Source of the DNA: a virus | Direction: 5' to 3' (one strand) | DNA: 64,000 bases | Virus record (IMG/VR): IMGVR_UViG_3300049489_001336 | Span: 1 to 64,000 of that record | Shown: positions 27,266 to 43,453 of the stretch, in pieces | Numbering within the stretch: the first letter of the stretch is position 1 | Layout: the number at the start of each line of letters is the position of its first letter | Program-made: the position numbers and the translations under genes | Notes under the pieces: model-generated | Told to the model about the DNA's origin: nothing | Databases searched by the model: none | What the model saw: the letters and a program-made list of their open reading frames with translations, nothing else

Positions 27266-28507
27266 ATGTCGAATTCACCGCTGTTCAAGCGCGCCTTCGT
27301 TCGTGGATTAAATGCTGAGCTGATTCGTCAAGGTGTTGTTGTTTATCCGTCGAAGGAAGCCGCGGATGCGACAGCCGATTTCGTCGCGGACGAATCGGGA
27401 ATGCCTGATCCCTACCTGGAAAACGATAAGCTCAACCTTAAAGTCGCGAGCGTACTCGTCGAACACCTGACGAAAGGTGCTGAATACCAGTGCCAGCAGG
27501 CCGGTAATAAGTTCAACCCCGCCGTAACCAAGACAGCACAGGCCGAAACGGCTGTTAGCCTCGCCAATAGCGACGCTTGGGCCATCATGGAAAAGTGCGC
27601 AGCCGAGACGGGTTCTCTGGTCGAAGGCGGCGACAACAAGAATGACATGCCCGCCGCTGCGTCGAATAACGCAGAAGCCGCACTCGAAAACAAGCAGCGC
27701 CCCGAAAACTACGCCAACCTGGGCGAAAAGGGCGTCGGCAATTACGAGGGCAAGGGCGAAGGCACCGTCGGCACTGAGCAGAAACACCCTGAAGCGCCTA
27801 AGAGCACTGACAGCGGTTCCAACTCAGTAACGGAACAGAGCAGCAAGTCAGCTTCTCTGGCTTCGATTATTCGCCGAATCGGCAAGACTGCCGAGAGCAC
27901 CGGTAGCCTTATCACCGGCGGCGGTAACCCCAATGACCTGCCCGCTGCCGCAGCCAGCAACGCGGAAGCCGCACTTGAACAGAGCATGCGCCCCGAAGGT
28001 TACGCCAACCTGGGCGAACGCGGCGTAGGTCAGACCGAGATGCAAGTTCCTGGCAACGCGGTCGTAGGCACCGAGCAGCCGCACAGCCTTGCCCCTGGCG
28101 CCACGGACTCCGGATCCAACTCTATCATCGAGCACTCAAAGAACGCGTTTGATCAACTCTTTGAGAATACAGCTAAGCAGGTAGTTCCTTACCTGCCTGA
28201 GAACATGCAGGATGAGCAGAAGGTTGCACACGTTCGAGCCATGATGGGCCTCGAAACGTCTGACCGCGCTGGTTACCTGCAGAACTTGTACACAGGCCTC
28301 GGCGCCAAGAAGGAAGCCGCCGCTGCAGTGCGCAACCACTTTATCAAGGCCGCCGAAGAGTCCTGTGATTCTTCTGAAGAAAAGAAGGAGGAGGGCCCTG
28401 GCCTCCCCGCCTTCATGAAGAAAGAAGAAAAATCTGAGGAGAAGAAGGAAGAAAAGTCCGCTTCTCTCAGCGCGCTCCGCAGTCGCCTTAAGACCGTCAA
28501 TGCCTGA
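27266..28507 (+). CDS. Putative virion protein with an 82-residue tandem duplication
   Basis: 413 aa from ATG 27266 (MSNSPLFKRAFVRG), which has AGGAG 9 nt upstream; the ATG at 27230 lies in the promoter region and has no SD. The middle contains two copies of a segment (TGSL..GG.N.ND.PAAA ... YANLGE(K/R)GVG ... TDSGSNS), separated by a short linker. The C-terminus is extremely Glu/Lys-rich. KTA/KSA tripeptides mark the repeat borders (VTKTAQ, IGKTAE, EKSASL). Codon use is rich in C-ending codons, like the capsid gene, suggesting high expression. I recognise no family; a scaffold or internal head protein is plausible. Confidence 0.7.
   Translation: MSNSPLFKRAFVRGLNAELIRQGVVVYPSKEAADATADFVADESGMPDPYLENDKLNLKVASVLVEHLTKGAEYQCQQAGNKFNPAVTKTAQAETAVSLANSDAWAIMEKCAAETGSLVEGGDNKNDMPAAASNNAEAALENKQRPENYANLGEKGVGNYEGKGEGTVGTEQKHPEAPKSTDSGSNSVTEQSSKSASLASIIRRIGKTAESTGSLITGGGNPNDLPAAAASNAEAALEQSMRPEGYANLGERGVGQTEMQVPGNAVVGTEQPHSLAPGATDSGSNSIIEHSKNAFDQLFENTAKQVVPYLPENMQDEQKVAHVRAMMGLETSDRAGYLQNLYTGLGAKKEAAAAVRNHFIKAAEESCDSSEEKKEEGPGLPAFMKKEEKSEEKKEEKSASLSALRSRLKTVNA
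27605..28147 (+). repeat. Two-copy coding repeat in the 27266 gene
   Basis: Copies at about 27605-27850 and 27896-28147. The protein repeats align over roughly 82 residues with identities such as TGSL, AEAALE, YANLGE, GTEQ and TDSGSNS. DNA identity is lower, so it is an old internal duplication. Confidence 0.75.
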
Positions 28508-28514
28508 TTAAAAC

Positions 28515-28703
28515 ATGGCGCTTACGCGAGCAGCACTCAAGCTCGGGCTCCAGCTTGTCCAAACGAAGCTTGGGCAAGTCATGGGGGACCCGAGTTTTTC
28601 TATTCTACCTCAGCAACCCGTAGCGTTTGAGCACGCTTTAGCTCGCCCAAAACGCACAGGTACTGCTAACATCAAACCGCCCAAAATCGTAAACACCCGG
28701 TAG
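28515..28703 (+). CDS. Small basic protein with KLG motifs
   Basis: 62 aa. It begins MALTRAALKLGLQLVQTKLGQ, two KLG elements within 20 residues, and ends in a basic Pro/Lys-rich tail (RPKRTGTANIKPPKIVNTR). It lies between two large virion-type genes, 8 nt from each. Function unknown; probably co-expressed structural or packaged protein. Confidence 0.65.
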   Translation: MALTRAALKLGLQLVQTKLGQVMGDPSFSILPQQPVAFEHALARPKRTGTANIKPPKIVNTR

Positions 28704-28710
28704 AGAACCC

Positions 28711-31700
28711 ATGGCCACTGTCAAGCACGCTCTTCTTTCACCGGCGATCAATGCTCAGCCGGGTATTCCCAACGCTGAGGATGAAAAGCAGCTGTTCGAA
28801 GAGAAGTTCGGACAGATGGCTTATCAAGCGTTCTCTTCAAAATTTCCGGACTTGGTTCCCAATATCGTTACGTTCAAGATTTTGGATTCTGATCTTGAAA
28901 ACGGGACAGGTATTGGCGCGTTCATTATTGAACAAGAAGGGGACTACGTTTATGTCCCCGCTATTGTATCCGAAAATGAATTAAAGCCCTTTGATTTGAT
29001 GTACGTAAAGTCAAAAGACATCTTTTTGCCACTCTCCAACGAGTGGTTAGAAGAAGTCGCAAAGGGCACCATTAACTCCCTCGGGGAGGGCGTTAAGTTG
29101 CCCGATACCGTTGCGACCGACGTCGATATTCGCAATATCGTAGTTCCTCCAACTACGGGTCGTTATAGCTACGCAAGCTTTGAAGTGTCCCCGCGTGCAC
29201 GTATGCACGCTACCGCTTCGGAACCTCTTGGCCGTAGACTGACCAAGCTCGCGGAACTGGGTCCATTTCCGGGTGGCGGTGGCACGGGTGCCGGCGGTGG
29301 TGAAAATACGTTTGACCCTGAGCTTTGGGCCACGTTTGTGGAGCAGTTTCAGCGCATCCAACAGATGACGCCTGGACAGGCGCTCGACAGCAACATGGCA
29401 GATGTTGAGACGCTCTCCAAGATGTACAAGTCCCACCAAAAAACGTGGGAATTGATGAATACATCGGGACCTGCAGGCGCTGCCGTACAGCAACAAGCGG
29501 TACAGCAAGGGCAACCCATGCAGGCTCCCGCAAGCCCCCAAGGTATGCCTCCGGCACAACAAGGCATGCAGGTTACGGCATCTGCGAAAACGGCTAATGC
29601 ACCGCGCACCGTAGGCAGTAAACTCGACTCGCTTTTAGTAAATATCGCCAAAGGAGGCGCCTTAGGTGGTGGTGTTGGCGGCATAGCAGCGGCTGCCGAT
29701 GGCGACTCCTCCGACGTACCCAGCGGCATCGTGCATGGCGCTATAGGCGGTTTGTTAGCTGCCCCTCTAGGGGCTATAGCAGGAGAAGATATCGCAGCGC
29801 GCCATTTCCCCCACACCGGAGCTGTAAAAAGTAGAGCATTGGGTGCCGGCCTTGGCGTAGCTGCAGGCGGTTATTTAGGAGGTACTTCTGAACCTCCTGA
29901 AGTCGTCAATAACTACAACACATTCTCACTTGGAGATGCGGCGCGCTCGCTCATTCCTGGGCTGGGAATGTTGCGCACAGGCGCAGACCATGCCCAAGGT
30001 CTGCGTGACATGATTCGACATGCTCAAAAGAGCACCAAGCACGCGTCGTGTCTTCCTGAGTTTTTGACGCGTGCACCTAATACGGTAAAGCGCGCCTTTA
30101 CTAAGGTACTCGACAAAAATCCCCGGTTACTTAAGCACGCGGTTGATCAATACGGTGAAGACGCGTTGGTTGCTGCGCTCCGCGACACAAAGACTGCGGG
30201 CATGAGTAATACGGGTGGCGCTCTCCTTGTTGCTGACAAGGGAACTGACGCCAAGGCGTACTCAGACTTTTTCGGCGAAGCCGCACCCGAGGCTTTTACA
30301 GGAGTTCTTACGCGCGGCTATTACTTCAAAGATACGCGTAAATCTTTGAATTTAGCTGCGCAAGTTCAGGAATACCATGATTTCCAGGATACGCTGGATT
30401 CTGGTGTTTATAACCTGTACACTGAAGAAGGTGCTCCCAAAGCCGCGCTCGTTTTCGTAGAGCCTTTTGACCTCTTGTCGGCAGATCGCTTTACGTTCCC
30501 GCGCGACGAAAACCGCGTTAAACCCATCAAAAGTAGGGTCCCGGTAGACGCGCATCGCCGCGAGCCCCACAATCTTGGGCCTATTGAGCGTGACCTTCCC
30601 GACGCTCCCGACGTTGAACGGTCCCATAAATACAGCAGAATGGCCATTCTCGGAAATGGCGATTACGTGCTCACACACAAGCTTTTCGGCGAAAAAACAA
30701 CGGAAAGCCTGCTTAAGGGCACCGCTCTCTATTCTGCAATTTTGACAGAAAAGAAAGCACAGGTTTCTCGTGGCGTAGGTTGTTTCGTGGCCAAAAGAGG
30801 CGCGTCCTATTTAGGTACGCTGCCTGTCGAAGTCACAGAGATGACAACCGGCTCTGACGGCGTTATTCGCGGCAAACTTGGCGCTGTTGGTGGTTGGGAC
30901 GTACAGAGCTTCGTAATTGATCCAAAGGCGAACCTGAATCGCCCTATGAAACTCCGTGACCAGCGGTTGGTCCTTATCCCCGCAAGCTGGAAATGGGTTT
31001 CACTCAAAGACAGTAAAGAAGACAGCGACTTCTTGCGTACCGCCGACGCGCTGCACCGCATGGTTCTTAACACTCTGAAAAATGACGGAGTGAAAGAAGC
31101 CGCGGTGAAGAACGCGGGTCACAACATGTTTGCGGTGGACGGTGAGCGTGCACTGGGCAAAAAAGATGCGCTCGTAAAGATCGCACAGAAATACCACGTG
31201 CACGCATCTGCTGCAGAAGCAATGTTGAAAATTGCTTCACACGAAGGCGTATGCCGTGCCTACGTGATGTCTCCTACACGGTATCAGGCTTTAACTGAAC
31301 GCGTGAAAATTGCGCAGGGGCAAGCAGTCCCGCAAACGCCAATGGGCGCTCCTCCTGCAATGCAACAGGCACCTCAGATGCCTATGCAAGCAGCCCCTGC
31401 CCCGATGCCGCAAGAGCCTGCGGCACCTCCGGCACCTTCTCCAGTGGATCAAGCCTTTGGGGAATCTATGGGAATGCTGCAGCAACAAATGCAGCAACTC
31501 CAAGCACAGCTTGATGTGCTGATGATGGTACAACAGCGCGCTCAGCAAATTGAGTCTGGCGAAGCTGGCCAAATGGATCCTTCCCAAAGTATGCAAGGTA
31601 TGCCGCAAGGCATGGACCCTTCTATGGGCATGGACCCGGCTGCTATGGGCGGTCAAATGGACCCCTCAATGATGGGTATGGACCCTGCGGCACAACAGCA

Positions 31701-32082
31701 GCCTCCCATGCCGATCATGAATACGGAAGAGCCTTCTGCGGATGAAATTGCGCAGCAAATTAACCCCGCGTTTTTAGAAAACGCAGCGCAGTTGCACGAA
31801 ACAGGGGCTTTTGACGCGGGCACCATGGCCTCCCTCGCACAGAACTCGACATTAAAGTCGATCACGTCGCAGTTTGCTGCGAATTTTGAAAGCAGCATTG
31901 ACGACTTGGGGCGTTCCCTGTTGACGCTTTACATGCAAGAGCCGCAGCTCAAAGAGCAGTTAGGCGACCAAACATTTATTGATCTTGAGACACAGTTGCG
32001 TGATACATTTCATGGGCTTGGAAAACTGGTACTTTCTATGACCCACAACGCAACGATGTTAGATCCCAATGCGGTCGCCTAA
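28711..32082 (+). CDS. Large putative virion protein with Gly-zipper and Met/Gln-rich regions
   Basis: 1123 aa. Residues 1-200 are a folded alpha/beta domain. A Gln/Pro/Met linker follows, then a glycine-zipper region (GGALGGGVGGIAAAADG, IGGLLAAPLGAIAG, LGAGLGVAAGGYLGG) able to form membrane helices. A large folded region of about 500 residues is next, then a low-complexity segment built from MDPSMGMDPAAMGG-like units, and a final helical domain. Five K-(T/I)-A tripeptides are scattered through it. The combination suggests an internal or ejected capsid protein that may interact with the host membrane. No enzymatic motif recognised. Confidence 0.7.
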   Translation: MATVKHALLSPAINAQPGIPNAEDEKQLFEEKFGQMAYQAFSSKFPDLVPNIVTFKILDSDLENGTGIGAFIIEQEGDYVYVPAIVSENELKPFDLMYVKSKDIFLPLSNEWLEEVAKGTINSLGEGVKLPDTVATDVDIRNIVVPPTTGRYSYASFEVSPRARMHATASEPLGRRLTKLAELGPFPGGGGTGAGGGENTFDPELWATFVEQFQRIQQMTPGQALDSNMADVETLSKMYKSHQKTWELMNTSGPAGAAVQQQAVQQGQPMQAPASPQGMPPAQQGMQVTASAKTANAPRTVGSKLDSLLVNIAKGGALGGGVGGIAAAADGDSSDVPSGIVHGAIGGLLAAPLGAIAGEDIAARHFPHTGAVKSRALGAGLGVAAGGYLGGTSEPPEVVNNYNTFSLGDAARSLIPGLGMLRTGADHAQGLRDMIRHAQKSTKHASCLPEFLTRAPNTVKRAFTKVLDKNPRLLKHAVDQYGEDALVAALRDTKTAGMSNTGGALLVADKGTDAKAYSDFFGEAAPEAFTGVLTRGYYFKDTRKSLNLAAQVQEYHDFQDTLDSGVYNLYTEEGAPKAALVFVEPFDLLSADRFTFPRDENRVKPIKSRVPVDAHRREPHNLGPIERDLPDAPDVERSHKYSRMAILGNGDYVLTHKLFGEKTTESLLKGTALYSAILTEKKAQVSRGVGCFVAKRGASYLGTLPVEVTEMTTGSDGVIRGKLGAVGGWDVQSFVIDPKANLNRPMKLRDQRLVLIPASWKWVSLKDSKEDSDFLRTADALHRMVLNTLKNDGVKEAAVKNAGHNMFAVDGERALGKKDALVKIAQKYHVHASAAEAMLKIASHEGVCRAYVMSPTRYQALTERVKIAQGQAVPQTPMGAPPAMQQAPQMPMQAAPAPMPQEPAAPPAPSPVDQAFGESMGMLQQQMQQLQAQLDVLMMVQQRAQQIESGEAGQMDPSQSMQGMPQGMDPSMGMDPAAMGGQMDPSMMGMDPAAQQQPPMPIMNTEEPSADEIAQQINPAFLENAAQLHETGAFDAGTMASLAQNSTLKSITSQFAANFESSIDDLGRSLLTLYMQEPQLKEQLGDQTFIDLETQLRDTFHGLGKLVLSMTHNATMLDPNAVA

Positions 32083-32800
32083 TCCACGGCATCGATTCGA
32101 GGCGCTCAGCCTTAAACGCGCTGCCCCGGAAACAGAACACGAACGCTCCTTGTTCGTGCTGCTTCATGGGGCAGCCGCGTTAAACACGCTTTGTCCGTTA
32201 CGGCCATGGTCGAAGGACGCTGTAATCGACCCCAGCGTTGAATACCCTTACTTAGTTTTTAGGACAGGCTCTATTCGCGCTGTGCTTGAGTCTTTTTTAC
32301 TCGCTTCTTCTAACGACGCAGAAGTTGCAGATTCTGTGTCTATGCCTCCTGAAGAGGTAGATATTTATCGTAATTTATTTTTTGATACGACCGTATTTAG
32401 AACTGAATTAGAGATTATAGTCTTCATGCAGTCTATTCCTGAAGACGATCCTTACAAGAACTTCTACCGAATTGCTTACCATCAGGGGTTGGGAGCCCTT
32501 CGCTGGCATTTCTGTCGTAACAAAGGCCAGATACCCGCTGAAGACGTGGTGCGAACTATCATGACGGATGCCTACTTCCGTTCTTTAGAGCACCGCGGGC
32601 AAGTTATTACGGGTAAATTGGCCAAAGAGGCTGCCAAATACGCTAAACTCTCTCTGGAGTGTGCGCGTGCCATTCTACAAAAGAATGACCTCCCTGAGGG
32701 AAGCACCGAGGATCTCCGGATTAAGTTCGAGGAAGCCCGCCAGAATCGAACAATCGCAGATCTACAGCGTGAAGTAGGTCCTGAGAAGGTGGTGCACTGA
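32069..32800 (+). CDS. Hypothetical virion-module protein
   Basis: 243 aa, overlapping the previous gene by 14 nt and the next by 1 nt. Mostly helical, ending in a charged helix (ARQNRTIADLQREVGPEKVVH). Unlike its neighbours it has no K-(T/I)-A tripeptide or glycine zipper. The region HQGLGALRWHFCRNKGQ is the most distinctive; I know no family with it. It may be a chaperone or structural assembly factor. Confidence 0.7.
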   Translation: MRSPNPRHRFEALSLKRAAPETEHERSLFVLLHGAAALNTLCPLRPWSKDAVIDPSVEYPYLVFRTGSIRAVLESFLLASSNDAEVADSVSMPPEEVDIYRNLFFDTTVFRTELEIIVFMQSIPEDDPYKNFYRIAYHQGLGALRWHFCRNKGQIPAEDVVRTIMTDAYFRSLEHRGQVITGKLAKEAAKYAKLSLECARAILQKNDLPEGSTEDLRIKFEEARQNRTIADLQREVGPEKVVH

Positions 32801-33582
32801 TGGCTTACGTCACTGAAAATGACTACAAGAAGATGGCGGAGGCTATCGCGGACGATCTCGTTAATAACGGGATTTCGCTCAATGATAGCGTTTCCAAGCT
32901 GGCTTCTTCGATGGACATGAACCACGAGCAAATTCGTCGCCTTTGCGAAACGACGAACAACGTGACGTTCAATAAAATGTTCCAATCAAAAGATAAAACA
33001 GCGTCTGATCGAATGATTGAATTCGATGTAGCAGATGCTGATAAAGTTCTTGGCAGCCTTATTAAGCGCGCGTCTTGGATTACTGTAGAAAGCCAAGACG
33101 TCGTATCGCTGTCAGAATACAGGTCTTTACGTGAGGACGTAGCTCCTATTCCTCTTGAAAAGACCGCCAGTACCTTTGAGTTGCGCCCCGAGGCTCGCGC
33201 GAATAAAGAGGTTGACCAGCGTACGCTGCGTAAAACACTCGACCATCTGCGGCATGAAAAAATTGCCACAGAGCTTTTACATACAGATGCTGTCAGTGAA
33301 CTGCGTAGCCAATTTCGGCGCTTGTATCGTGACATGTCTTTCGAGACGTTCGAAAAGAACGCGGTTGCGCTTTACGGCGAAAAAGCGGCGCCTGTTCTCA
33401 ACACGCTTCGCTCTCACATGCGACTTCCTGAAGTTACGTACAACTGTGCGTTGCTACAGAAAACGGCAGGTTATGTGGACGACAGCGCTATCGAATTTAA
33501 GCTTTTAGCTGAGGCGCTTTCTTCGGCAGAAAAGCTAAGAAACATCAACGCAGGCATCGCCAAGCTGGAGACTCTCGTATGA
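32800..33582 (+). CDS. Hypothetical helical protein with K-(T/I)-A motifs
   Basis: 260 aa, predicted nearly all helical and charged. It contains DKTASD, EKTAST, EKIATE and QKTAGY. It overlaps both neighbours (1 and 4 nt), so it is part of one translationally coupled string from 32069 to 34175. It is likely an internal head or core protein; function unknown. Confidence 0.7.
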   Translation: MAYVTENDYKKMAEAIADDLVNNGISLNDSVSKLASSMDMNHEQIRRLCETTNNVTFNKMFQSKDKTASDRMIEFDVADADKVLGSLIKRASWITVESQDVVSLSEYRSLREDVAPIPLEKTASTFELRPEARANKEVDQRTLRKTLDHLRHEKIATELLHTDAVSELRSQFRRLYRDMSFETFEKNAVALYGEKAAPVLNTLRSHMRLPEVTYNCALLQKTAGYVDDSAIEFKLLAEALSSAEKLRNINAGIAKLETLV

Positions 33583-34175
33583 GTTTCGAAGATACCGTTA
33601 AAAAAATTGCGGCTTCACCTCTTATGCGAGAGCTTTTTGGTGAAGTGCCGTCTTATCTTTACAAAGAAGCAACAGGACAAGGACCAGCCCCTGGTCTTTT
33701 AGGGCGTATCTTTGGTGGCGCAAAAGACTCCACCACAGGGATGCAAGACGTTTATCGCAATATTGCAGGTAATGTCGGTGCAGGCGCACTGATGGCTGGC
33801 GGCGGTTATCTCGCGGGCAAGGCCGTAGATCGTGTAGGCGAACCGGACGAACAAATTCGCGCTAAGCAGCAGTCCCTCGGGCGGCTCATGGCGGAGCAAG
33901 ATTTCCGTAACACGAGCTTACAAAAGCTCAACCCGTTGCATGAGCAAGTTTTCACGGAATTGGGGGCAGACCCAATCATCGCTAAAGCCGATCCCCAATT
34001 GATTCAATCTGCCTACAGCACCATGAAGCGTATCGCGCCTCATTTAAGTGCGGACCCCAACGCAGCACGTAGTTTCTTACGTGAACATGCGATTTACGGT
34101 ACAGGGCCCAGTTACGCGTCTTTGAAAACTCTCGCAGACGCTGAGCAAGCAGTGTCGCGCGCTGGCGGAGGCTGA
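33579..34175 (+). CDS. Hypothetical protein with glycine-rich hydrophobic segment
   Basis: 198 aa. It starts with a helix ending in KKIAAS, then a glycine-rich hydrophobic stretch (NVGAGALMAGGGYLAGKAV, about residues 65-85), then soluble helices. It overlaps the 32800 gene by 4 nt and is followed after 2 nt by the 34178 gene. It resembles the neighbouring glycine-zipper proteins in layout, suggesting a shared membrane or core function. Confidence 0.68.
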   Translation: MSFEDTVKKIAASPLMRELFGEVPSYLYKEATGQGPAPGLLGRIFGGAKDSTTGMQDVYRNIAGNVGAGALMAGGGYLAGKAVDRVGEPDEQIRAKQQSLGRLMAEQDFRNTSLQKLNPLHEQVFTELGADPIIAKADPQLIQSAYSTMKRIAPHLSADPNAARSFLREHAIYGTGPSYASLKTLADAEQAVSRAGGG

Positions 34176-34177: not shown

Positions 34178-34936
34178 ATGGACTTCGATAAGTTGATGGA
34201 GAAAGTCAGTTCCGCTGAGTTACACATGAGTCCTGCACTGCAGGATGTAATGGCGCGTGTTCGCACGGTGGGTCTGCATAAGGCAGCTGCTGCCGTGAAC
34301 GGCATGCCTGAGATCACTGTAAAGACAGCGGCTCAACGCTTAGGTGCGCGCCTAGTTGAGCGCCATCGGCGTTATGAAAAAATCGCGTCAGGGCTTCAGT
34401 CTTTGGTCTTTATCGAAAAGACGGCAGTGTTGCCGTTTATGGGCTTGGGAGCAGTGGGTGCGCACCGCGCTAATCCAGAAGACCCCGCTTACATGGAGGG
34501 CGCAATGCTTGGTGCTCCAGGAGCCCTTTTGGGCGCTATACCTGCTACGCTAGCCGGGCACGCCATTGATAAATTGACAAAAACAGAAGGCGCAACACTC
34601 CCCGCAGGGGTACTAGGCGCGCTGTACGGCTCTTATAAACTTCCCGAAGTTTTGCTAAGGCCTAAGCAGAATAAAGAAGCGAGCGTACTGCCTCGCCCCA
34701 CAGCAGCTGTACCCAATCCTTCGCGTGTTGAAGGCCTTAAGCGCCTGTTAAAAGAGATGCAGGAAACCCCTCCCCAAATGCCGCAAGCGATGGGTGGCGC
34801 TATTGGCAGTGGTGGATCTTCCGGCATGTTTTCGGCATTTGATAATGCTGCCGAAGGCGTGAATCCCAAGGCAACACTGCGGGGTTCCATGCTGCCGCAT
34901 GAACTTCCTGCGATTCGCGCACTTCCTGGCCGCTGA
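34178..34936 (+). CDS. Hypothetical glycine-zipper protein with K-(T/I)-A motifs
   Basis: 252 aa. The N-terminal 85 residues carry four tripeptides at about 15-residue spacing or more: KAA 35-37, KTA 49-51, KIA 68-70 and KTA 81-83. Directly after the last come two hydrophobic Gly/Ala stretches (MLGAPGALLGAIPATLAG; GVLGALYGSYKLPEVLL). The C-terminus is Pro/Met-rich and disordered. It lies immediately upstream of the protease gene, so it is a good candidate for proteolytic processing. Confidence 0.68.
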   Translation: MDFDKLMEKVSSAELHMSPALQDVMARVRTVGLHKAAAAVNGMPEITVKTAAQRLGARLVERHRRYEKIASGLQSLVFIEKTAVLPFMGLGAVGAHRANPEDPAYMEGAMLGAPGALLGAIPATLAGHAIDKLTKTEGATLPAGVLGALYGSYKLPEVLLRPKQNKEASVLPRPTAAVPNPSRVEGLKRLLKEMQETPPQMPQAMGGAIGSGGSSGMFSAFDNAAEGVNPKATLRGSMLPHELPAIRALPGR

Positions 34937-34942: not shown

Positions 34943-36802
34943 ATGAGCTATTCGAAAATCATTACGCTTGATGAGCACTTCGCTACGGGTGAACCGACCG
35001 TCCAGTTGGTTTCTACGTGGGGGCGTAATGGTAAGCTTTTGCGTGAAGCAACGTCGCTTCACAAGATCGCTAGTACGAATAGCCCCGCGCTTGATTACAT
35101 CCGTAATGTGGCACCTGAACCCGGCAAGAGCATCGTGCTTGTCGTTGGTTTAGGTGACCACGAAACGTATGGCCCGAATCGCAATGGTGACGGATTTCCT
35201 TCTCAACCAATGCGCGGGAAAATTGCAGCGGATGAAGTGCTAACAAAGCACTATCAAACGTACGATAACGCGCACGTATTTGAGCATCACGTAAATAACG
35301 ATCCCAGTAAAGCCATCGGTAAAGTTAAAAAGGCTTTCTGGAATCCTGCAATGCGGCGCGTTGAGCTCATCGAGGATTTCGATCACGAAAAGGCGCCGCA
35401 TCTTTTAGAGAAAATCGCAAGCGGTGAGTATCCAGCTAAGAGCATGGGGGCGCGCATCAAATACGATGTATGTTCCAATTGCGCCAATAAAGCCCGCACA
35501 CGCTCGGAATACTGTGACCATCTAAAATTCGCAATGAGTCGTATTGACCCCGAAACCGGGATTCAAAATGCTGCGCTTAACCCCAGTCCTCATTTTTTCG
35601 ATAGTTCTTGGGTTATTCGGCCTGCAGATCGTACTGGCTACATGCTTAAAAAGGTAGCTAAAGAGCACCCCTACGAGATTCGCTTGGGTGGCTTTGAATT
35701 CGGTGAAATCGTCAATGATTTATCTCAGAAAGCAGCTGAGATCGGTAAAGCTGCGGATATTGAGAAAATCATTCAAGGTGAACCCGCCGCGAGTGTGTCT
35801 AATTTAGACCCCGCCGACGCACGTCTTGTCGAGCGTTATATGCAGGAGTGCGCTTGTTCTGACGAGCCGAAAGACAATTCCGGCGTCGTCAATATCATGA
35901 TTTCTTACAAGCCCAATGAGGCGATGGACACTGCCGAAGCTGCAGGCCTTCCATTAGGTTTGAAAGAAATCATGCAAATGTTCTTGGGCAAATTGGATCC
36001 TGAACAAGGTCCAAGTTGTGCTTCACCTGAATTACTGAAGTCTGCGAATGACCATTTAGGTCTTATTTTCTCGGTATTTAATGCGTACCCGCGCTTTTAT
36101 TCAGACTTAATCAAAGAGGCGAATTTAGATCAACCTTTCGCGGTAAATGAAGACTTACTGCAAAAAATCGCGATTTGGGATAGTCCGACAGGAGACTACG
36201 TAAAGCGCACGGTGTTGCCGTCTAGCCTATATAGCGGGCGCCCCAAAACGGACGTACTTACGTGGACTGACCCTAATTCGGGCGTTCAGTACAAAACTAA
36301 CTACAATCACGTTCAACAAACCCAAGACGCGCTCATCCGTAAAGGTCTTAAAGACAAAGCAACCGTCAGTGGTGCTTTGTTAGGGACAGGCGCTTTACTA
36401 GGTGGCGCCGCTTACGGTCTTCGTCGTACGCGTGTACCGACGAACTTGCGCCGCGGAATGGGGCTTGTCGGTGCAGGTCTTGGTTTAGTTGGCGGCAAAA
36501 AGTTGATCGACCCTACACCTATTGCCGGACCAAAAATCGTAACTGATCAAGGCGAAACTATTTCTGGTTGGACGCCGATGGTTCAAAACAAAGCCGCCGG
36601 CTACAACCCCGACTTCGCTTACGTCGTAAAGCGCGCGTCAGAGAAACCCTCCAAGATGGATTCTCAGTACATTAAGGGATTCATATCTGGATTGAAGCAG
36701 GCTGAAATCCATGATGCTATGAGCCCCTTTATTGGACCGAACTTAGACTTCGACAAAGTTGCGCAAGCCCTTGGTACGTCGATATTAAAGCGTTCCGAGT
36801 AA
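34943..36802 (+). CDS. Prohead maturation serine protease (fused to a long C-terminal region)
   Basis: 619 aa. The N-terminal domain matches phage prohead proteases: GLGDHETYGPNRNGDGFP, then YDNAHVFEHHVNNDPSKAIG (catalytic His about 115/116) and PAKSMGARIKY (catalytic Ser 167). A cysteine group follows at once (C177, C180, C191, H193), as in some large-phage proteases. The rest, about 400 residues, is far longer than a minimal protease: a middle region with QKIAIW, then a glycine zipper (GALLGTGALLGGAAYG; GLVGAGLGLVGG). It contains four K-I-A tripeptides. It would cleave scaffold and core proteins during head maturation; the C-terminal part may itself be a core component. Confidence 0.82.
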   Translation: MSYSKIITLDEHFATGEPTVQLVSTWGRNGKLLREATSLHKIASTNSPALDYIRNVAPEPGKSIVLVVGLGDHETYGPNRNGDGFPSQPMRGKIAADEVLTKHYQTYDNAHVFEHHVNNDPSKAIGKVKKAFWNPAMRRVELIEDFDHEKAPHLLEKIASGEYPAKSMGARIKYDVCSNCANKARTRSEYCDHLKFAMSRIDPETGIQNAALNPSPHFFDSSWVIRPADRTGYMLKKVAKEHPYEIRLGGFEFGEIVNDLSQKAAEIGKAADIEKIIQGEPAASVSNLDPADARLVERYMQECACSDEPKDNSGVVNIMISYKPNEAMDTAEAAGLPLGLKEIMQMFLGKLDPEQGPSCASPELLKSANDHLGLIFSVFNAYPRFYSDLIKEANLDQPFAVNEDLLQKIAIWDSPTGDYVKRTVLPSSLYSGRPKTDVLTWTDPNSGVQYKTNYNHVQQTQDALIRKGLKDKATVSGALLGTGALLGGAAYGLRRTRVPTNLRRGMGLVGAGLGLVGGKKLIDPTPIAGPKIVTDQGETISGWTPMVQNKAAGYNPDFAYVVKRASEKPSKMDSQYIKGFISGLKQAEIHDAMSPFIGPNLDFDKVAQALGTSILKRSE

Positions 36803-36805
36803 AGC

Positions 36806-36834
36806 TTGTACAAACAAAGACTACGCCCTAAGAT
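36806..36834 (+). promoter_or_regulatory. Sigma70-like promoter for the scaffold/capsid operon
   Basis: TTGTAC (36806-36811), 17-bp spacer, TAAGAT (36829-36834), followed by TAAC. It lies in the 59-nt gap before the 36862 gene and is the closest match to the promoter at 27206-27234. The downstream genes run to the terminator at 40361-40396. Confidence 0.65.
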
Positions 36835-36861
36835 TAACCACGAAACCCTTGAGAGGGACAC

Positions 36862-37413
36862 ATGGCTGAAGAGAGCGCATTTACCCGTATTTTGAACAGC
36901 CTCAACGCTGCTGATACCGGGGTATCCGAAAAAACCGCGTCTGCTAACACAACGCCAAACGCGGCCACACGTCTTGTGGAAACCGTGCGTTCTGTCGCAG
37001 CCTCCACAAATAAGACAGCTTCCGCTAAGGCAGCTCCCGTGACGCCCGCTGCTTCGTTGGAGCAGATGGCCAAGCAGGCGCAAGCTGCTGAGCAGGAGCA
37101 GTTGGTCAAAGAGGCCCATCTCATGGGCGCCGCGATGGCTGACGGTTTTATGGAGCGCTTTGCACAGTATGACGTTGCGCTTTCTGGCGTAAAGACAGCA
37201 TCGCCGGCTGTACTTCCAGAAGCTCAGATTCAGAAAATTGCGGAAGCCGCTTACAGCCGCGCCGTCCAGGACATGGAAAAACACGCTGAAGCGGAGTTCG
37301 AGCGGGGTTATCAAGACCAGCTCCAAGAGATTCACAAGATCGCGGCTGACATGCATTTCATTGGTCAGACCGCCGCCAGCACGCTCATTAACGAGGCGCG
37401 TAAGGCCCAATGA
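36862..37413 (+). CDS. Scaffold-like helical protein rich in K-(T/I)-A motifs
   Basis: 183 aa, Ala/Glu/Gln-rich and probably elongated coiled coil after residue 65. It holds five copies of the tripeptide: KTA at 24-26, 51-53 and 111-113, KIA at 125-127 and 159-161. First gene after the promoter at 36806, with SD GAGAGGG. Position between protease and capsid and the composition fit a scaffold or prohead core protein that is degraded by the protease. It overlaps the next gene by 4 nt (ATGA). Confidence 0.7.
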   Translation: MAEESAFTRILNSLNAADTGVSEKTASANTTPNAATRLVETVRSVAASTNKTASAKAAPVTPAASLEQMAKQAQAAEQEQLVKEAHLMGAAMADGFMERFAQYDVALSGVKTASPAVLPEAQIQKIAEAAYSRAVQDMEKHAEAEFERGYQDQLQEIHKIAADMHFIGQTAASTLINEARKAQ

Positions 37414-38039
37414 GCCGCTACGTAAACATCAGCGAGCTTGCAGACCAGGTACTTGCGTCAGTAGCTACTGAAGCGAGTACAAAGGTAGCGTCTGCACCTG
37501 CTCCAGCTAAGGCTTCGGTTCCGGTAGCGCGTGACATCAAAAAGCTTGCTGATGATTTACGTGCAATGCCCGAACAAGATGAAGTAGGCGACGAAGACCT
37601 CCAAGCGGTTCTCAATGACCCTGAGGTTTTAGAGCTTCTTCAAGCATTAGAAAATGACCCTGAGCTCCTCCAGGCTCTTCTCAGCGAAGAGGACTTTGGG
37701 GAAGCTGAGCCTGGCATGGAAGAAATGCAAGGCATGGAGGGCATGCAAGGCATGGAGGGGCTCGATCCTTCCGCCGACCCCCTTTCTGCGCAACAAGGTC
37801 CTTCGGAAAAATCCGAAGGTAAGCGCGAAAAAGACAAAGGTGAATCTGATTCACCCGAAGGTAAGGATAAACCTGCGCCTTTTGGTCAAAAATCAGGGTC
37901 TCTCAGCGCAGACCTCCGTAAAATCGCCGCGTATTTACGCCAACAAGAAACACAAGCCAAGCGAGTACGCTTGGTAAAGGCAGCGGCAATGTTAAATGCC
38001 GCGACTGGCCTTCAGCACCTCATTGGGGGTTCAAAGTGA
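37410..38039 (+). CDS. Acidic scaffold-like protein
   Basis: 209 aa. The N-terminus resembles the preceding gene (Ala-rich, TKVASAPAPAKAS), a strongly acidic centre follows (EDLQAVLNDPEVLELLQALE) and a repeated Gln-Gly-Met-Glu-Gly-Met tract, then a charged linker and a C-terminal helix with RKIAAY and VKAAAM. High acidity and low complexity are usual for phage scaffolds. Overlaps both neighbours by 4 nt. Confidence 0.65.
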   Translation: MSRYVNISELADQVLASVATEASTKVASAPAPAKASVPVARDIKKLADDLRAMPEQDEVGDEDLQAVLNDPEVLELLQALENDPELLQALLSEEDFGEAEPGMEEMQGMEGMQGMEGLDPSADPLSAQQGPSEKSEGKREKDKGESDSPEGKDKPAPFGQKSGSLSADLRKIAAYLRQQETQAKRVRLVKAAAMLNAATGLQHLIGGSK

Positions 38040-38395
38040 GCAAGGTAAGTAGAACAAAGCTTGCTGGTGTGCTCGAAGCCGTCGCTGATTATATCGACGA
38101 AAACGAGAGCCAAAAGCTGGCTTCTGAAAAAGTTGCGCGTGAAGAGCGCATTCAAAAGCTCGCCAAGAGCTACGAAACCTCCACGGGTGAAACCTTGGCG
38201 CCTGCTTTTAAAGAAAAGCTGGCGAACCTTGATCCCGAAACCCTTGATCATTTACTCAAGGTTGCCAAAAATAACGATGAGTCTCCGGTCTCCTTAGGCG
38301 GGCCGGCGGATACAAGCGATACCCCGGCTCCCCGCACAGTCAAGGAAGCCGCGGCTCAAGCAGAAAACCGATTCCTTGACTGGCTCATTAGCTGA
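38036..38395 (+). CDS. Small scaffold-like helical protein
   Basis: 119 aa, GTG start overlapping the previous stop (GTGA). It contains KLA tripeptides at regular intervals (TKLAGV, QKLASE, QKLAKS, EKLANL) and KVA, a variant of the K-(T/I)-A pattern, on a predicted continuous helix. Third of three similar helical genes between protease and capsid; likely core or scaffold. Confidence 0.65.
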   Translation: MSKVSRTKLAGVLEAVADYIDENESQKLASEKVAREERIQKLAKSYETSTGETLAPAFKEKLANLDPETLDHLLKVAKNNDESPVSLGGPADTSDTPAPRTVKEAAAQAENRFLDWLIS

Positions 38396-38420
38396 AAACA
38401 GGCTCAGGAGATAAGTTCCA

Positions 38421-38888
38421 ATGGCAAGTCTCAATGACAAGTTCGACGTACTCCGCGGCTGGGAACCTGGTGGCGACGCTGGTGTTGACCAATCGCTCCC
38501 TCCGGTGAAGGTCAGTAACGTTCCCGTTACCCTTTTGCCAGGGTATATCGTTGCTCTTAATTCCAGCGGCGAAGTTAACGTCGCTACGACTGCTGCTGAC
38601 GTCACCCTGGGTACGGCACAGCCCCAGCGTGTGTATGTCGTAGTGGAAGGCAATGGCGCCGACTATTCGACCGTATTTACGGAGAAGGTCGTGTGCCTTC
38701 GCGGCAAGCTCACCGTGAAGACTGACAAGCTTGGTGCTTCGCAGTCGTTCCCGGTTAACGGCAAGGTGTCGTTCAGCGCGGGTCTCTTGGTTGACGCCGG
38801 CGCTACAGCGACCACGCAAGTCATTGGTACGGTACTCGCGAACAACGTGTCCGCGAACGGTACCATCACAGTCGAACTCGACCTGTGA
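38421..38888 (+). CDS. Putative capsid decoration protein
   Basis: 155 aa with SD AGGAG. Beta-rich throughout (PVTLLPGYIVALNSSGEVNVA; RVYVVVEGNG; GTITVELDL) and lacking the K-(T/I)-A pattern. Directly before the major capsid gene in the same transcript, and with the same C-ending codon preference, which suggests very high expression. These features fit a head decoration or stabilising protein; sequence alone does not prove it. Confidence 0.65.
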   Translation: MASLNDKFDVLRGWEPGGDAGVDQSLPPVKVSNVPVTLLPGYIVALNSSGEVNVATTAADVTLGTAQPQRVYVVVEGNGADYSTVFTEKVVCLRGKLTVKTDKLGASQSFPVNGKVSFSAGLLVDAGATATTQVIGTVLANNVSANGTITVELDL

Positions 38889-38934
38889 TCGAACCCTAGT
38901 AATTACCCTGTAAAAAGGACACGGAGTTAAAATA

Positions 38935-39870
38935 ATGTCTTCGACCGCGTACCGCACCGAGACCGAAAAGGTTTCCGCTCAGTTCATTAACTCGAACTTT
39001 GTTCGTAAGCTTGAGCAGGGTCGAGTAAAGGAAGCTACGGAAGAGGGCTCTGCCTTTATCCGCACGAAAATGCGCCAGGAGGCGTTTGTTCGTGAGGTGC
39101 TTCCTCCGATCATGCTCGCGGACGACGAAATCGACCGCGACGAGAATACGGACCAGCCCAAGAAGATCGTCGAGAAGGAGCCTGACTCCGAGGCGACGTT
39201 CGTACCTTTCCATGGTACAGGTCCGCGCACCATTTTCCGTGGTCCCCGCTACGCGGTGTACTTCGGAAAGACCGAGTCTCAGCGCTTCCGTAAGTCGAAG
39301 TTTGAGCTGATGACCTATCAGAACGACATCCGCAAAATCCTTTCGGATAACTCCGTGAAGGACATGGCGGACCAGGAAGACCTGAAGTTCATCACCACGA
39401 TCAACACCATCCTCGCGGGTGCTGCTCCGCAGGTGAAGACGAACGCTGGCTTTACCTCGGCGGCCTTCAAGAAGGGCTTCCAGAACCTGGTCTCGCGTCG
39501 CCTGCCTATCGGCAAGGTGCTTATGACGAAGACCTGCTACTACGAGGCCCTCGACCTGCCGGCGACCTCGGTTGGTGACGACATTGCGTCGGGTCACTAC
39601 CGTGACGGTATCGAGAAGGAAGAGCGCCTTTGGGGCATTCCGGTCGTGACCACGATCAAGAATGACATCCTCACGGCCCAGGGCGGCGCCACCCACTCGG
39701 TGTATTTCTTCGCTCCGGAGAATTACCTGGGTAACTTCTTCCTTCTCCAGGATGCTACGTTGTTCATCAAGCAGGAAGCGGATATGATCTTCTTCCACAG
39801 CTACGCAGCGCCTGGCATCGGTATCGGTAACACCGCCGCGATGGCCCGCGTAGATATCACTATCGCGTGA
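38935..39870 (+). CDS. Major capsid protein
   Basis: 311 aa, SD GGAG 8 nt upstream. Called from its position after protease, scaffold and decoration genes, its strong codon bias, and a profile like HK97-fold capsids: a helical N-arm (residues 15-55), a beta/alpha middle (DQEDLKFITTINTIL), then FIKQEADMIFFHSYAAPGIGI near the C-terminus. No K-(T/I)-A tripeptide, unlike the adjacent scaffold genes. No long cleavable delta domain is evident, so scaffolding is probably supplied by the three upstream genes. Confidence 0.85.
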   Translation: MSSTAYRTETEKVSAQFINSNFVRKLEQGRVKEATEEGSAFIRTKMRQEAFVREVLPPIMLADDEIDRDENTDQPKKIVEKEPDSEATFVPFHGTGPRTIFRGPRYAVYFGKTESQRFRKSKFELMTYQNDIRKILSDNSVKDMADQEDLKFITTINTILAGAAPQVKTNAGFTSAAFKKGFQNLVSRRLPIGKVLMTKTCYYEALDLPATSVGDDIASGHYRDGIEKEERLWGIPVVTTIKNDILTAQGGATHSVYFFAPENYLGNFFLLQDATLFIKQEADMIFFHSYAAPGIGIGNTAAMARVDITIA

Positions 39871-40337
39871 GGCTCATGAAACTGCATTGGCTACAACTTA
39901 ATCGTTCTGGAGTAGTGCTTGAGATTTCGCATCTCAAGGATTACGGCGGTCAACCTCTGGTGTTTCGGCCCCCGAGCTTGACTCGACGTTGTGTAACAGA
40001 TGAGGTTTTTAATAACCCGCTTGTTGCCGACTACAGAACGCAAAGGCTACTCATTGAAGTAGACAGTAGCGGTGCAGTTTCGCCTCCGCCTGCGGCTCCT
40101 ACCCCACCTAAAGCGGTAGAGCCGCCGGCAGAGCTATCGGTTGTGCAAACGACGACGGTGCCGCCCACGGTTACCGAACCTGCTTCTACGGAACCAGTTT
40201 CTGAGCCTGCTGTTGAGGAACCTAAGGCCAATGCAGCAGAGCCTACGTCTTCTGAGCCTACTCCGGACTCCTCCGTGTCCAACGATGAGGCTGCTCCCAA
40301 AAGTGGGTTCGAGCTCAAGCGTCGCAACAAGCGCTAA
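39867..40337 (+). CDS. Head-associated protein with disordered C-terminus
   Basis: 156 aa from GTG 39867, or 153 aa from ATG 39876 (MKLHWLQLNRSG); the 4-nt GTGA overlap with the capsid stop favours coupling either way. Residues 1-55 are a small beta domain; the rest is a Pro/Glu/Thr-rich disordered region ending in a basic cap (FELKRRNKR). Last gene before the 40361 terminator. Function unknown; a head completion or capsid-binding role is possible by position. Confidence 0.65.
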   Translation: MRLMKLHWLQLNRSGVVLEISHLKDYGGQPLVFRPPSLTRRCVTDEVFNNPLVADYRTQRLLIEVDSSGAVSPPPAAPTPPKAVEPPAELSVVQTTTVPPTVTEPASTEPVSEPAVEEPKANAAEPTSSEPTPDSSVSNDEAAPKSGFELKRRNKR

Positions 40338-40360
40338 CACAACCTCTAGTTCTTGAGAGG

Positions 40361-40396
40361 AGCGCGCACATCTTAGATGTGACGCGCTTTTTCTTT
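40361..40396 (+). terminator. Intrinsic terminator of the capsid operon, inside the next gene leader
   Basis: Stem AGCGCG-CACATC (40361-40372) pairs with GATGTG-A-CGCGCT (40376-40388) with a 3-nt loop and one bulge, followed by TTTTTCTTT. It would stop most transcription after the capsid genes. The next ATG (40397) directly follows the T tract, and an SD-like GAGAGGAG lies just before the stem. Confidence 0.85.
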
Positions 40397-40960
40397 ATGG
40401 GCACACAAACAATCAAATGGTTTCCAGCAACGTCTCCCAACGTTATCGCTTATGAAGTATTAAAAAGCGATACAGGTATCGACGGTCCCTACACGTTGCT
40501 GACACAGGTATTGCACCAAATTCCTGGCGTAAATTGGGACAACACAGGTAGTTATTTCTTCTTTAATGATGAAGAAATAAGTTACCGCTACTACCGCTTA
40601 CGCGTTTTAGACCGCTACGGCAACGTAGCTGAAGACGAAGCGCCAACGCCGTTCAAAGCAGGAAATGACCCTGTCATTGCCCCTACGCTTTACGTAGTAG
40701 CGCTGACCGAAAATACGGGGGGCGCCAACGCACTTCAGTACATCACGAACGGAGGTACTCCTGTTGCAGGGGCTGCGATTCGCGTGTACCGAAAAATAGA
40801 TTACGACACAAATAACCTTAGCCGCGTAGTGGGCACGTCAGTCACCACTGCCACCGGCGGTTGGGCGGTTCCTGTATTTGTTGAGCCTGGAGACACTTAC
40901 ACGATCGTTTATCATAAGGTAAACGAGTACGGACCTGATAAAACCGAAGTCACGGTGTGA
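40397..40960 (+). CDS. Putative connector/neck-region protein with Ig/FnIII-like domain
   Basis: 187 aa from ATG 40397; the GTG at 40379 lies inside the terminator stem and is not used. The first 90 residues read like a fibronectin III fold (IKWFPATSPNVIAYEVLKS, YRYYRLRVLDRYGNVAED), and the C-terminal half like a second beta-sandwich (TGGWAVPVFVEPGDTYTIVYH). Such domains decorate phage virions. Translation must initiate right after a terminator hairpin; the SD lies on the other side of it. Confidence 0.65.
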   Translation: MGTQTIKWFPATSPNVIAYEVLKSDTGIDGPYTLLTQVLHQIPGVNWDNTGSYFFFNDEEISYRYYRLRVLDRYGNVAEDEAPTPFKAGNDPVIAPTLYVVALTENTGGANALQYITNGGTPVAGAAIRVYRKIDYDTNNLSRVVGTSVTTATGGWAVPVFVEPGDTYTIVYHKVNEYGPDKTEVTV

Positions 40961-40966
40961 GGTTCC

Positions 40967-41446
40967 ATGCCTATCGTAGCGACTCCTACCACTCCTGTTA
41001 TTTTGACCGTTGATCAAATTCGACGGTTTATGCGGGACTATCCAAATCAAAACATTTTACTGGATGCAGTCGAGTACTCTCAGGACGACGTAAATCAGGG
41101 CGTTGAAATGGTTACCTCGCGTTATAACGCGATTACGCCCCAAACTAATCTGATAGCGTCCTCCTGGCCTTCTCACCTTCAATACATTCTTCTACTCGGT
41201 GTCGCGGCGTATTTGCTTAAAAGCAACGCAATTCTTCAATTAAGAAATCAAGCCACTTACCAAGACGGCGACGTCGCTCCCATCGGTATCGATGACAAGT
41301 ACGCGCAGCATTTACAGCTTGCGCAAGTGCTTGATGCAGAGTGGCTCGACATGGTTACAAAAATCAAAATTCAAAATAACCTTGAAGAAGGTTATGGCAG
41401 CCTGAGTTCAGGCTACGTTAACGTCAGTCGTTACCACCACCGGTGA
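40967..41446 (+). CDS. Putative head-tail connector (adaptor)
   Basis: 159 aa. Starts with a Pro/Thr strand, then helices (VDQIRRFMRDYPNQN, LQYILLLGVAAYLLKSNAIL) and a polar C-terminus. Helical proteins of this size after the capsid gene are often gp6-type adaptors that bind the portal ring. The assignment is by size, fold impression and gene order only. Confidence 0.5.
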   Translation: MPIVATPTTPVILTVDQIRRFMRDYPNQNILLDAVEYSQDDVNQGVEMVTSRYNAITPQTNLIASSWPSHLQYILLLGVAAYLLKSNAILQLRNQATYQDGDVAPIGIDDKYAQHLQLAQVLDAEWLDMVTKIKIQNNLEEGYGSLSSGYVNVSRYHHR

Positions 41447-41450
41447 ACCC

Positions 41451-42074
41451 ATGTACTACGAATACGGACAGCGCGCAGCCTTACAAAAGCTTGGCATGGG
41501 TGCCGCACCTATCCCTTACGCAGGTGCGTCTACACCGACTAACGACATGTTCTCCGCAAACAAACGGCAGGACATTTGGAGCGAAGTGGACAGCACGCCT
41601 ATCGCAATGAGTGGCGAAGAGTCTGCACAAGGAATGCCGAGTGCTCCAAAAAGCGCGAGCTACACAGGCGTAGTCGCTCAGGGCAGTGGCGACGGATTTC
41701 GCGGAGATCCTGAACGTAAAAACAAGTTTGAAGATGGGGTGCGGCGAGCGTTTCAAAGCAACGCCGATATCGATAACAGCACCACCTCTGAACCCGGATT
41801 TGCGTCTCCTAAATTAGCCAATAGCTTTTTCAACATCGGCAAAGGCCTACGTCCGAGCAGCTTAGGTCCGCGCAGTACTTCTTCATTAATGGGTAAGACG
41901 TCACCCAGCATGCCAAAACCTGGCGGCAATTTAAATGCGTCTTTGAACCCCATGAAGTCCCCGGTGATTAAACCCCCGACACCCATGCAGCCTAATTTAG
42001 CGCGGGGAGCTCACATGTCCCTTATGGGATCAAGCGTCAACTCTCCAATGCATCGGTTTACGAGTCCTTTATGA
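41451..42074 (+). CDS. Putative virion protein with N-terminal KLG motif
   Basis: 207 aa. It begins MYYEYGQRAALQKLGMG, matching the N-terminal element of the small genes beside the RNA polymerase. The rest is Ser/Pro/Met-rich and probably disordered, with KPGGNLNASLNPMKSP-like stretches. It overlaps the next gene by 4 nt. The ordered N-terminus with a disordered body suggests a protein that is attached to a partner through the KLG segment. Confidence 0.65.
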   Translation: MYYEYGQRAALQKLGMGAAPIPYAGASTPTNDMFSANKRQDIWSEVDSTPIAMSGEESAQGMPSAPKSASYTGVVAQGSGDGFRGDPERKNKFEDGVRRAFQSNADIDNSTTSEPGFASPKLANSFFNIGKGLRPSSLGPRSTSSLMGKTSPSMPKPGGNLNASLNPMKSPVIKPPTPMQPNLARGAHMSLMGSSVNSPMHRFTSPL

Positions 42075-43453
42075 GCTTCGCTTATTACTGTAAGTACGCG
42101 ATGAGCACGCAATTTCAAACCATGGTTAGTGCCACTGGTGAGGATGGGCGCGTGCATTCTCGCACTACAGATAATCCTCGTAATCAGGTATCCAGCGCTT
42201 TTGAACAACAAGCGCTACAAATGGCGAATGAGCCTAGTGAGTCCAATCAATTTTCTGTGGGATCAGATCAAAGTAAAACTGCCATTGATTTAGAGACACT
42301 GAAACAACACAGTAAAACACCTGTGCGCGTAGACTCTCGTGCAGATTTTACAGGTGGCGGTTTTTACCATCCTAAAGAGGATTTTATAGGGATCAGCGAA
42401 GGCGTCGACCCTAACATTTTGGCACATGAAATAGGCCACACTAAATTCCAAAACAGTCTCCTAGGAAAAATTACACAGAGTGCCCCCGCACGTCTGATGC
42501 ATAACTTATCCCCTCTTGGGATGTTAGCTTTGGGTGGTAAACTGCAGGGTGATTTCAAAAAGCGTTTATTAAAATCGATGGGACTAAGCTTTGGAATGAG
42601 TGCCCCTACCCTGATTTCCGAAGGCGGGGCCGACTATCACGGCTATCAGACCTTAAAAGAATTAGGCGCGGACGACGCTCGATTAAAAGAATTTAGAAAT
42701 AAAATGATACTACCGGCTGCATCGTATTTAGCAGCCCCTATTGCAAATACTGCATTTGGCATGCATCTTAGTCGCCCCACGAAACCTGCGAATACTAAGA
42801 CGGCAGGCCGTGCCCTGGCACGCACCCTGAAATTCCGTGATCTCGACGTTTCAATCGAGACCGATAAAGGCAGCTACCGCCGTTGGTATGACCCGCATAC
42901 CAAGCAAGAAGGCAAAACACTAATGCAGTACCCGTACGGGTATATCCGCCGTACGCAAGGCATGGACGGCGATCACATCGATTGTTTTGTTGGACCCAAC
43001 GAAAAGTCTGACAAGATATTTGTTATTTTAACGAATAAAGCACCTAATTTTGACAGAATCGATGAAGAAAAGTGCATGTTAGGTTTTGACTCGGCCGAAC
43101 AAGCCAAGAAGGTATTCTTGGACCATTATTCGGACCGCAAATTCTTTAATTCCATGAAGATCATGTCTTACAACGACTTCAAGGACAAAGCGTTAGCAAC
43201 GCTTAATGGCGGTGTAAAGAAACTCAGCGCTGCGCAAGACGCGTCTTCGCTAGCTGGATTTGACAGTCAAAATTCAGACTTTTTAGAGACACCTAGGGGC
43301 CGGGCTTTTATTGCATGGAACGGGTTTCAACCGGGTACTTTTATGAGTCCGTCAACGCGTGTTGACCGGATGTTCCGTGCGCATGACAATGCGCCTTCTA
43401 CGGATGCTGTAGAAGGTAACACCAACGCACATCCTGCAGAGCCGAGTCTCTAA
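42071..43453 (+). CDS. HExxH metallopeptidase-like domain fused to phage InPase-like domain
   Basis: 460 aa. The N-terminal half has a zinc-protease signature H119-E-I-G-H123 (ILAHEIGHTKF) and a downstream acidic SEGGADYHGY that could give the third ligand. The C-terminal half (about 255-380) matches the InPase (inorganic pyrophosphatase-like) domain known from MuF-type and polymorphic-toxin proteins: YGYIRRTQGMDGDHIDCFVG, FVILTNKAPNFDRIDEEKCM, LGFDSAEQAKKVFLDHY. KTA occurs twice (SKTAID, TKTAGR). It could be packaged with the head or act at the neck. Substrates are unknown. Confidence 0.7.
   Translation: MSFAYYCKYAMSTQFQTMVSATGEDGRVHSRTTDNPRNQVSSAFEQQALQMANEPSESNQFSVGSDQSKTAIDLETLKQHSKTPVRVDSRADFTGGGFYHPKEDFIGISEGVDPNILAHEIGHTKFQNSLLGKITQSAPARLMHNLSPLGMLALGGKLQGDFKKRLLKSMGLSFGMSAPTLISEGGADYHGYQTLKELGADDARLKEFRNKMILPAASYLAAPIANTAFGMHLSRPTKPANTKTAGRALARTLKFRDLDVSIETDKGSYRRWYDPHTKQEGKTLMQYPYGYIRRTQGMDGDHIDCFVGPNEKSDKIFVILTNKAPNFDRIDEEKCMLGFDSAEQAKKVFLDHYSDRKFFNSMKIMSYNDFKDKALATLNGGVKKLSAAQDASSLAGFDSQNSDFLETPRGRAFIAWNGFQPGTFMSPSTRVDRMFRAHDNAPSTDAVEGNTNAHPAEPSL

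Follow-up and report, generated by a model that had tools for sequence, protein, structure and literature searches.

A short pattern consisting of lysine and alanine separated by one nearly free residue (K-x-A), often followed by Ser or Ala, is strongly overrepresented in the head-module proteins of the virus record IMGVR_UViG_3300049489_001336 (189,879 bases), the first 64 kb of which constitute the window. We consider, with a probability of about 0.86, that the prohead protease encoded at positions 34943-36802 recognises K-x-A(S/A) and cuts there; that cleavage takes place, that the 34943 protein is the enzyme responsible and that the scissile bond lies behind the alanine are predictions drawn from sequence. 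Proteins are designated below by the first positions of their genes. In the initial annotation of the window, dispersed K-(T/I)-A tripeptides were proposed to be either protease cleavage sites or a signal for packaging into the prohead; of these two we infer the former and disfavour the latter.

Enrichment and shape of the K-x-A motif

Exactly 27 copies of K-(T/I)-A, the number initially noticed by eye, were counted in the proteins of 27230-43453: five each in the 28711 and 36862 proteins, four each in the 32800 protein and the protease, three in 34178, two each in 27230 and 42071, and one each in 33579 and 37410. Upon shuffling of each protein, 3.3 copies were expected in these 5,272 residues (z 12.9), and the highest of 1,000 shuffles reached 9. 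The reported use of KLA in the 38036 protein was borne out by four copies, and the tail proteins, where very few tripeptides had been noted, contain no K-(T/I)-A. The contrast to the three largest non-module proteins (DNA polymerase, primase-like and RNA polymerase-like) held as well, with 5 copies in 3,596 residues and 2.8 expected, although the earlier figure of about 3 was slightly low. Similarly, the flanking residues follow the described trend, with E/Q/V/H before the tripeptide in 15 and A/S after it in 14 of the 27 cases, for which the word "usually" was a little too strong.

The motif proved to be wider than K-(T/I)-A: the ten genes of the head module contain 85 copies of K-x-A against 27 expected from shuffles, involving 38% of the module lysines (85/223), and, the middle residue being nearly free, K-(T/I)-A is simply its commonest form. 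A genome-wide count revealed no K-x-A excess in the rest of the genome. In order to avoid by-eye selection bias, every ordered pair of residues with a spacing of 1-6 was scored (2,244 combinations), and K-x-A ranked first with z 10.0, the runner-up having 4.6. It was also the first pair in the head modules of Salmonella phage Arash and Vibrio phage D69 which, along with Vibrio phages D181 and D148, are the named relatives in the phage collection (capsid protein identity 39-41%). The presence of the motif in related phages was further supported by the scan of the regions within 4.5 kb of the protease gene, where K-x-A was the top pair in 75 of 82 distinct loci. As a control of the method, T4 gp67/68/21/22 were scanned likewise; I-x-E came first and L-x-E third, that is, the known site of the T4 protease.

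Environmental virus contigs supplied about 125 stretches with closer capsid protein relatives, 80 of which were kept. Before the family counts were compared with shuffles, orthologues more than 80% identical were collapsed; because this does not remove shared ancestry, the family z-scores given below overstate independence, a problem of which the single-genome values are free. The strongest family was that of the scaffold-like 36862 protein, with 6-15 K-x-A sites in each of its 44 members, and in the scaffold-like proteins generally one copy falls per approximately 15-25 residues. In the 34178 family K-(T/I/V)-A was found 24 times with 2 expected; in that of 42071, K-x-A(S/A) was counted 15 times with 5.4 expected and any K-x-A 42 times with 31 expected. 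The capsid, decoration, RNA polymerase and most tail families displayed no enrichment, and the portal, with 210 copies and 234 expected, was ruled out as a protease substrate.

The profile of 1,673 sites spans seven positions, from two before K to two after A (L/F/M/I; E/V/H/T; K; T/I/V/E/Q/L; A; S/A/E/Q; V/E/D/A), the information being near background beyond them. Gly, Pro and Asp are disfavoured between K and A, Pro, Ile and Lys at the first position after A, and Pro at the second, the avoidance of Pro being strong at both. In 22 conserved motif columns of the scaffold alignments K is retained in 83% and A in 89% of cases, as compared to 50% for the middle residue and 40-55% for the other neighbours. 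Such strict K and A with loose neighbours have the look of selection on the P3 and P1 positions of a protease site, and the seven-residue extent matches the size of a protease groove, as far as can be judged from sequence.

The prohead protease, the capsid protein and other predicted substrates

The 34943 protein matches PHROG 18299, a head maturation protease (E 2.2e-9, residues 75-197), and in the Foldseek comparison its AlphaFold2 model (mean predicted local distance difference test score, pLDDT, 70.7) had T4 gp21 (5jbl) as the top PDB match with a modest score (probability 0.98, target TM 0.51, E 0.038); a sequence search against solved structures returned nothing relevant. Residues H115/H116, E141 and S167 are invariant in the protease alignment, and H115, E141 and S167 are presumably the catalytic triad, assigned by order and spacing as in T4 gp21. 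By profile and modelled fold, the 34943 protein belongs to the prohead proteases, and its proteolytic activity is predicted. Its gene adjoins the scaffold and capsid genes in the order 34943, 36862, 37410, 38036, 38421, 38935. Two near-invariant K-x-A sites flank the catalytic domain (Table 1), and both fall in places where the pLDDT of the model is below 50 (residues 40-43 and 226-252), with a compact domain in between. Over the protease family, K-x-A was counted 41 times in the N-terminal segment (8 expected) and 289 times in the C-terminal extension (113 expected).

The proteases of some relatives are 940-995 residues long, the extra part being an intein with Hint, intein-splicing and LAGLIDADG matches (L061:4434-7418, L055:5027-7846, L078:5026-7860, L045:4956-7805). 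In L061 and L045 it interrupts the protease immediately past the active-site S-M-G, before Cys170, and in L055 at the Cys191 position; it ends with H-N followed by Cys. An intein within the active site of a head protease seems unusual.

The capsid protein had been described as devoid of the motif; in fact, it carries a single K-E-A at residues 32-34, invariant among relatives. The body of the protein is depleted of K-x-A (25 vs 108 expected; the sequences are related, so no significance level is attached to this figure).

Searches of PHROGs and Pfam gave no useful matches by which the substrate families could be named, and no orthologue of the 27230 protein was found among the fetched loci of relatives. 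The 28711 protein is a homologue of Arash gp218, and gp220 is the Arash counterpart of the 32800 protein, both being annotated as structural by the depositors; a literature search for a paper on Arash virion proteins found none. If all nine sites of the 36862 protein were cut, peptides of 5-28 residues would result, according to our computation.

A weight matrix built from the relatives only was scanned over all proteins of the genome, and flagged, apart from the head-module genes, one other strong outlier at 187102-188094 (G000:C1:187102-188094; L090:3102-4094) with 8 high-scoring sites against 0.35 expected. This protein of 330 amino acids contains 11 K-x-A (2.7 expected), is conserved in 14 of the 16 relatives searched (family K-x-A 166 vs 38 expected) and has a sub-threshold Pfam match to DUF6582. 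It is probably another, unrecognised core or scaffold protein. Arash gp199 was considered as its homologue and ruled out, the sequence being unrelated.

Table 1. Head-region features of the window; counts are of K-x-A, observed vs expected.
Feature	Position	Strand	Evidence
425-aa head-module protein, predicted substrate	27230..28507	+	13 vs 4.2
1123-aa head protein, predicted substrate	28711..32082	+	15 vs 6.8; family 147 vs 80, z 8.9
260-aa head protein, predicted multi-site substrate	32800..33582	+	9 vs 1.9; family 213 vs 58, z 21.6
198-aa head protein, weak motif	33579..34175	+	2 vs 1.3; family 86 vs 68
252-aa head protein, predicted substrate	34178..34936	+	5 vs 2.0; family 42 vs 14
Prohead protease, 619 aa, long C-terminal extension	34943..36802	+	15 vs 4.2; family 356 vs 139, z 22
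Predicted self-cleavage site K41-I-A43↓S, before catalytic domain	35063..35071	+	K-x-A in 35/37 relatives
Predicted self-cleavage site K237-V-A239, after catalytic domain	35651..35659	+	K-x-A in 42/42 relatives
183-aa scaffold-like core protein	36862..37413	+	9 sites; family 475 vs 127, z 34
209-aa acidic core protein, predicted substrate	37410..38039	+	family 50 vs 18, z 8.9
119-aa core/scaffold-like protein, mainly KLA and KVA	38036..38395	+	7 vs 1.5; family 227 vs 56, z 26
Major capsid protein	38935..39870	+	homologue of Arash major capsid protein, 41% identity
Predicted capsid maturation site K32-E-A34	39028..39036	+	invariant in 69/69 sequences, including Arash and Vibrio D69
Head-region protein, possible minor substrate	42071..43453	+	two KTA; inorganic-pyrophosphatase-like domain PF18823, 2e-32 (Pfam)

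The head module spans 27230-38395, with the capsid protein gene following at 38935; elsewhere in the window, the large terminase is encoded at 168, the DNA polymerase at 2490 and the portal at 16970, the latter matched via gene order to the annotated portal of Arash. Between the portal and the head module lie large multisubunit RNA polymerase beta-type proteins split over two genes (20145-24536 and 25385-27190), and the same arrangement is present in Arash. A patatin-like phospholipase gene (48266-49138) lies amid the tail genes, while a gene of an IS605 OrfB/TnpB-type protein with a Cas12f-like domain (54147-55253, minus strand) is inserted amid structural genes. The neck/tail protein encoded at 44962-46026 has collagen-like GPQGPQG repeats, and its first part closely resembles the adjoining 44283-44960 protein.

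Proposed processing and alternative explanations

In the processing that we propose, the protease, the scaffold/core proteins and the capsid protein would assemble into a prohead, the core comprising the 36862, 37410, 38036, 32800, 34178, 28711 and 27230 proteins together with the distant 187102 protein. The protease would then cut after the alanine of K-x-A, and with cuts in itself at K41-I-A and K237-V-A would set its catalytic domain free; the core proteins would be diced into short peptides able to leave the shell, and the capsid protein would lose a 34-residue N-terminal peptide at K-E-A.

The main rival explanation is that K-x-A serves as a docking or targeting motif, which attaches the core proteins to the shell or to one another and takes them into the prohead uncut. 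The occurrence of the motif mainly in proteins expected inside the prohead is in line with this possibility, and capsid targeting sequences exist in T4 (PMC9026906). We nevertheless find it unlikely, because the scaffold copies come every 15-25 residues (up to 15 in approximately 190 residues of scaffold homologues), unlike a targeting tag present once per protein, and because in the protease the catalytic domain is flanked by near-invariant copies. Docking also leaves unexplained why one invariant copy is present near the N-terminus of the capsid protein, for which internal targeting is unnecessary, and why the rest of that protein is depleted of the motif. Finally, the preference reaches over no more than about seven residues, and the strong avoidance of Pro after A is more easily reconciled with a scissile bond than with a docking patch.

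That the motif is cut by a host protease or by a second phage protease instead of the 34943 protein appears very improbable, considering that K-x-A is the leading pair around proteases of the 34943 type in most relatives and that the domain borders of this very protein carry the site; besides, the searches made with the module proteins brought up no other protease. Several module proteins are alanine-rich and probably helical, so that a by-product of lysine- and alanine-rich sequence could be suspected; yet composition-preserving shuffles yield only one third as many copies, the residue between K and A prefers T/I/V, and in the shuffles of the head-module genes A-x-K, R-x-A, K-x-S, K-x-G and E-x-A are at or below expectation and the K-x-x-A spacing is not enriched, by which this cause was ruled out. 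Likewise ruled out was a DNA-level repeat or signal that happens to encode K-x-A, for which nothing speaks beyond the repetition itself, as the 85 sites comprise 70 distinct 9-mers with both Lys and all four Ala codons in use, the five other frames show no excess (6-17 copies, as compared to 85 in the coding frame) and no shared DNA consensus was seen.

Several observations weigh against cleavage at K-x-A as the general explanation. The catalytic core of the protease family is mildly enriched as well (58 vs 33), and therefore some copies must be left uncut unless the enzyme inactivates itself. At the capsid site, P1' is E/Q/T/A/S/G and not mainly S/A, the sequence around K-E-A is conserved in general, and the model of the capsid protein (pLDDT 51.5) is too poor to place K-E-A on the fold or to show that a cut there makes structural sense. 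Additionally, the pair scan ranked the known A-x-E motif of phage SPN3US 60th, and therefore the method can miss true motifs.

Comparison with known prohead proteases

The head proteases of T4 (gp21), phiKZ and SPN3US process many head proteins, as well as themselves, at L/I-x-E, S/A-x-E and A-x-E sites, respectively (PMC9026906, PMC5694885). In T4, the scaffold is cut at multiple sites, the capsid protein is trimmed at its N-terminus and the protease processes itself (PMC9026906, PMC9958956); all three events are predicted here, and the protease gene similarly lies between the core genes and the capsid gene. The P3-x-P1 design of recognition is also shared with T4 gp21, the best fold match of the 34943 protein, whereas the predicted residues are Ala at P1 and Lys at P3, not Glu and Leu/Ile; the 34943 protein further differs by its long C-terminal extension and by a conserved Cys/His cluster after the active serine. 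In phiKZ, 201phi2-1 and SPN3US, cutting at (S/A/G)-x-E, the propeptides contain several motif copies, the C-terminal part of the protease is self-cleaved, and Ser is preferred at P1' in SPN3US (PMC5694885, PMC10052503). Many motif copies, self-cleavage and a P1' preference for Ser are predicted in our case too; in contrast to those phages, which cut after Glu, K-x-A has no Glu at P1. Neither in this phage nor in its relatives was any pair ending in E at the K-x-A spacing among the leading ones, so the x-x-Glu motif of the Glu-specific subgroup (T4, phiKZ, SPN3US) was not found, and by its predicted rule the 34943 protease would stand outside that subgroup.

The herpesvirus maturational protease, assemblin, is of a homologous class (PMC5694885, PMC9026906). 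In herpesviruses protease and scaffold are fused, whereas the 34943 protease, with predicted sites of the A↓S type, is encoded by a gene separate from 36862 and 38036. The release and maturation sites of assemblin are Ala-Ser bonds, like the predicted A↓S, and we know of no preference for Lys at P3 across herpesviruses. This resemblance to the herpesvirus Ala-Ser rule is offered as a lead only.

Bacillus phage G possesses a related protease, gp19 (L091:16840-17742; 33.5% identity), with 8 K-x-A against 2.4 expected, in which KTAA/KIA precede and EKVAS follows the catalytic domain, as at the domain borders of the 34943 protein; this suggests that phage G may share the K-x-A cut rule. It differs in the weak enrichment of K-x-A over the module (17 vs 8.9, mild in gp7 and gp21) and in a capsid protein without K-x-A. 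In phage PaBG, the protease of which was not located, no excess of K-x-A was seen by eye in the regions read. Proteins gp89 and gp99 of Mycobacterium phage Nappy (L092:2449-5961, 12374-16210) each have 6 copies of a possibly related motif, (K/R)-(T/I/V)-A-(A/G/S), against about 0.5 expected, the pattern having been chosen post hoc.

A wider generalization is tentative and, in our opinion, rather unlikely: K-x-A↓(S/A) might mark a separate and old specificity class of prohead proteases that would take in Bacillus phage G besides the environmental, Salmonella and Vibrio phages and, if Arg may replace Lys, also the C1 mycobacteriophages. Such a class would stand nearer to the herpesvirus Ala-Ser rule than to the Glu rule of T4 and phiKZ.

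So far, knowledge of where phage head proteases cut has come from mass spectrometry of a few phages, while here a cut rule could be derived using nothing but sequence, with T4 as a control. In one step, this rule points to the likely substrates among the scaffold, core and capsid proteins of a large and almost unannotated phage group, including a protein encoded far from the head module. If confirmed, the Lys/Ala rule would join the known Glu rules, with a mature protease of approximately residues 44-239 and a mature capsid protein starting from residue 35 as its predictions, and would offer a general route to finding scaffold proteins, which rarely show sequence similarity.

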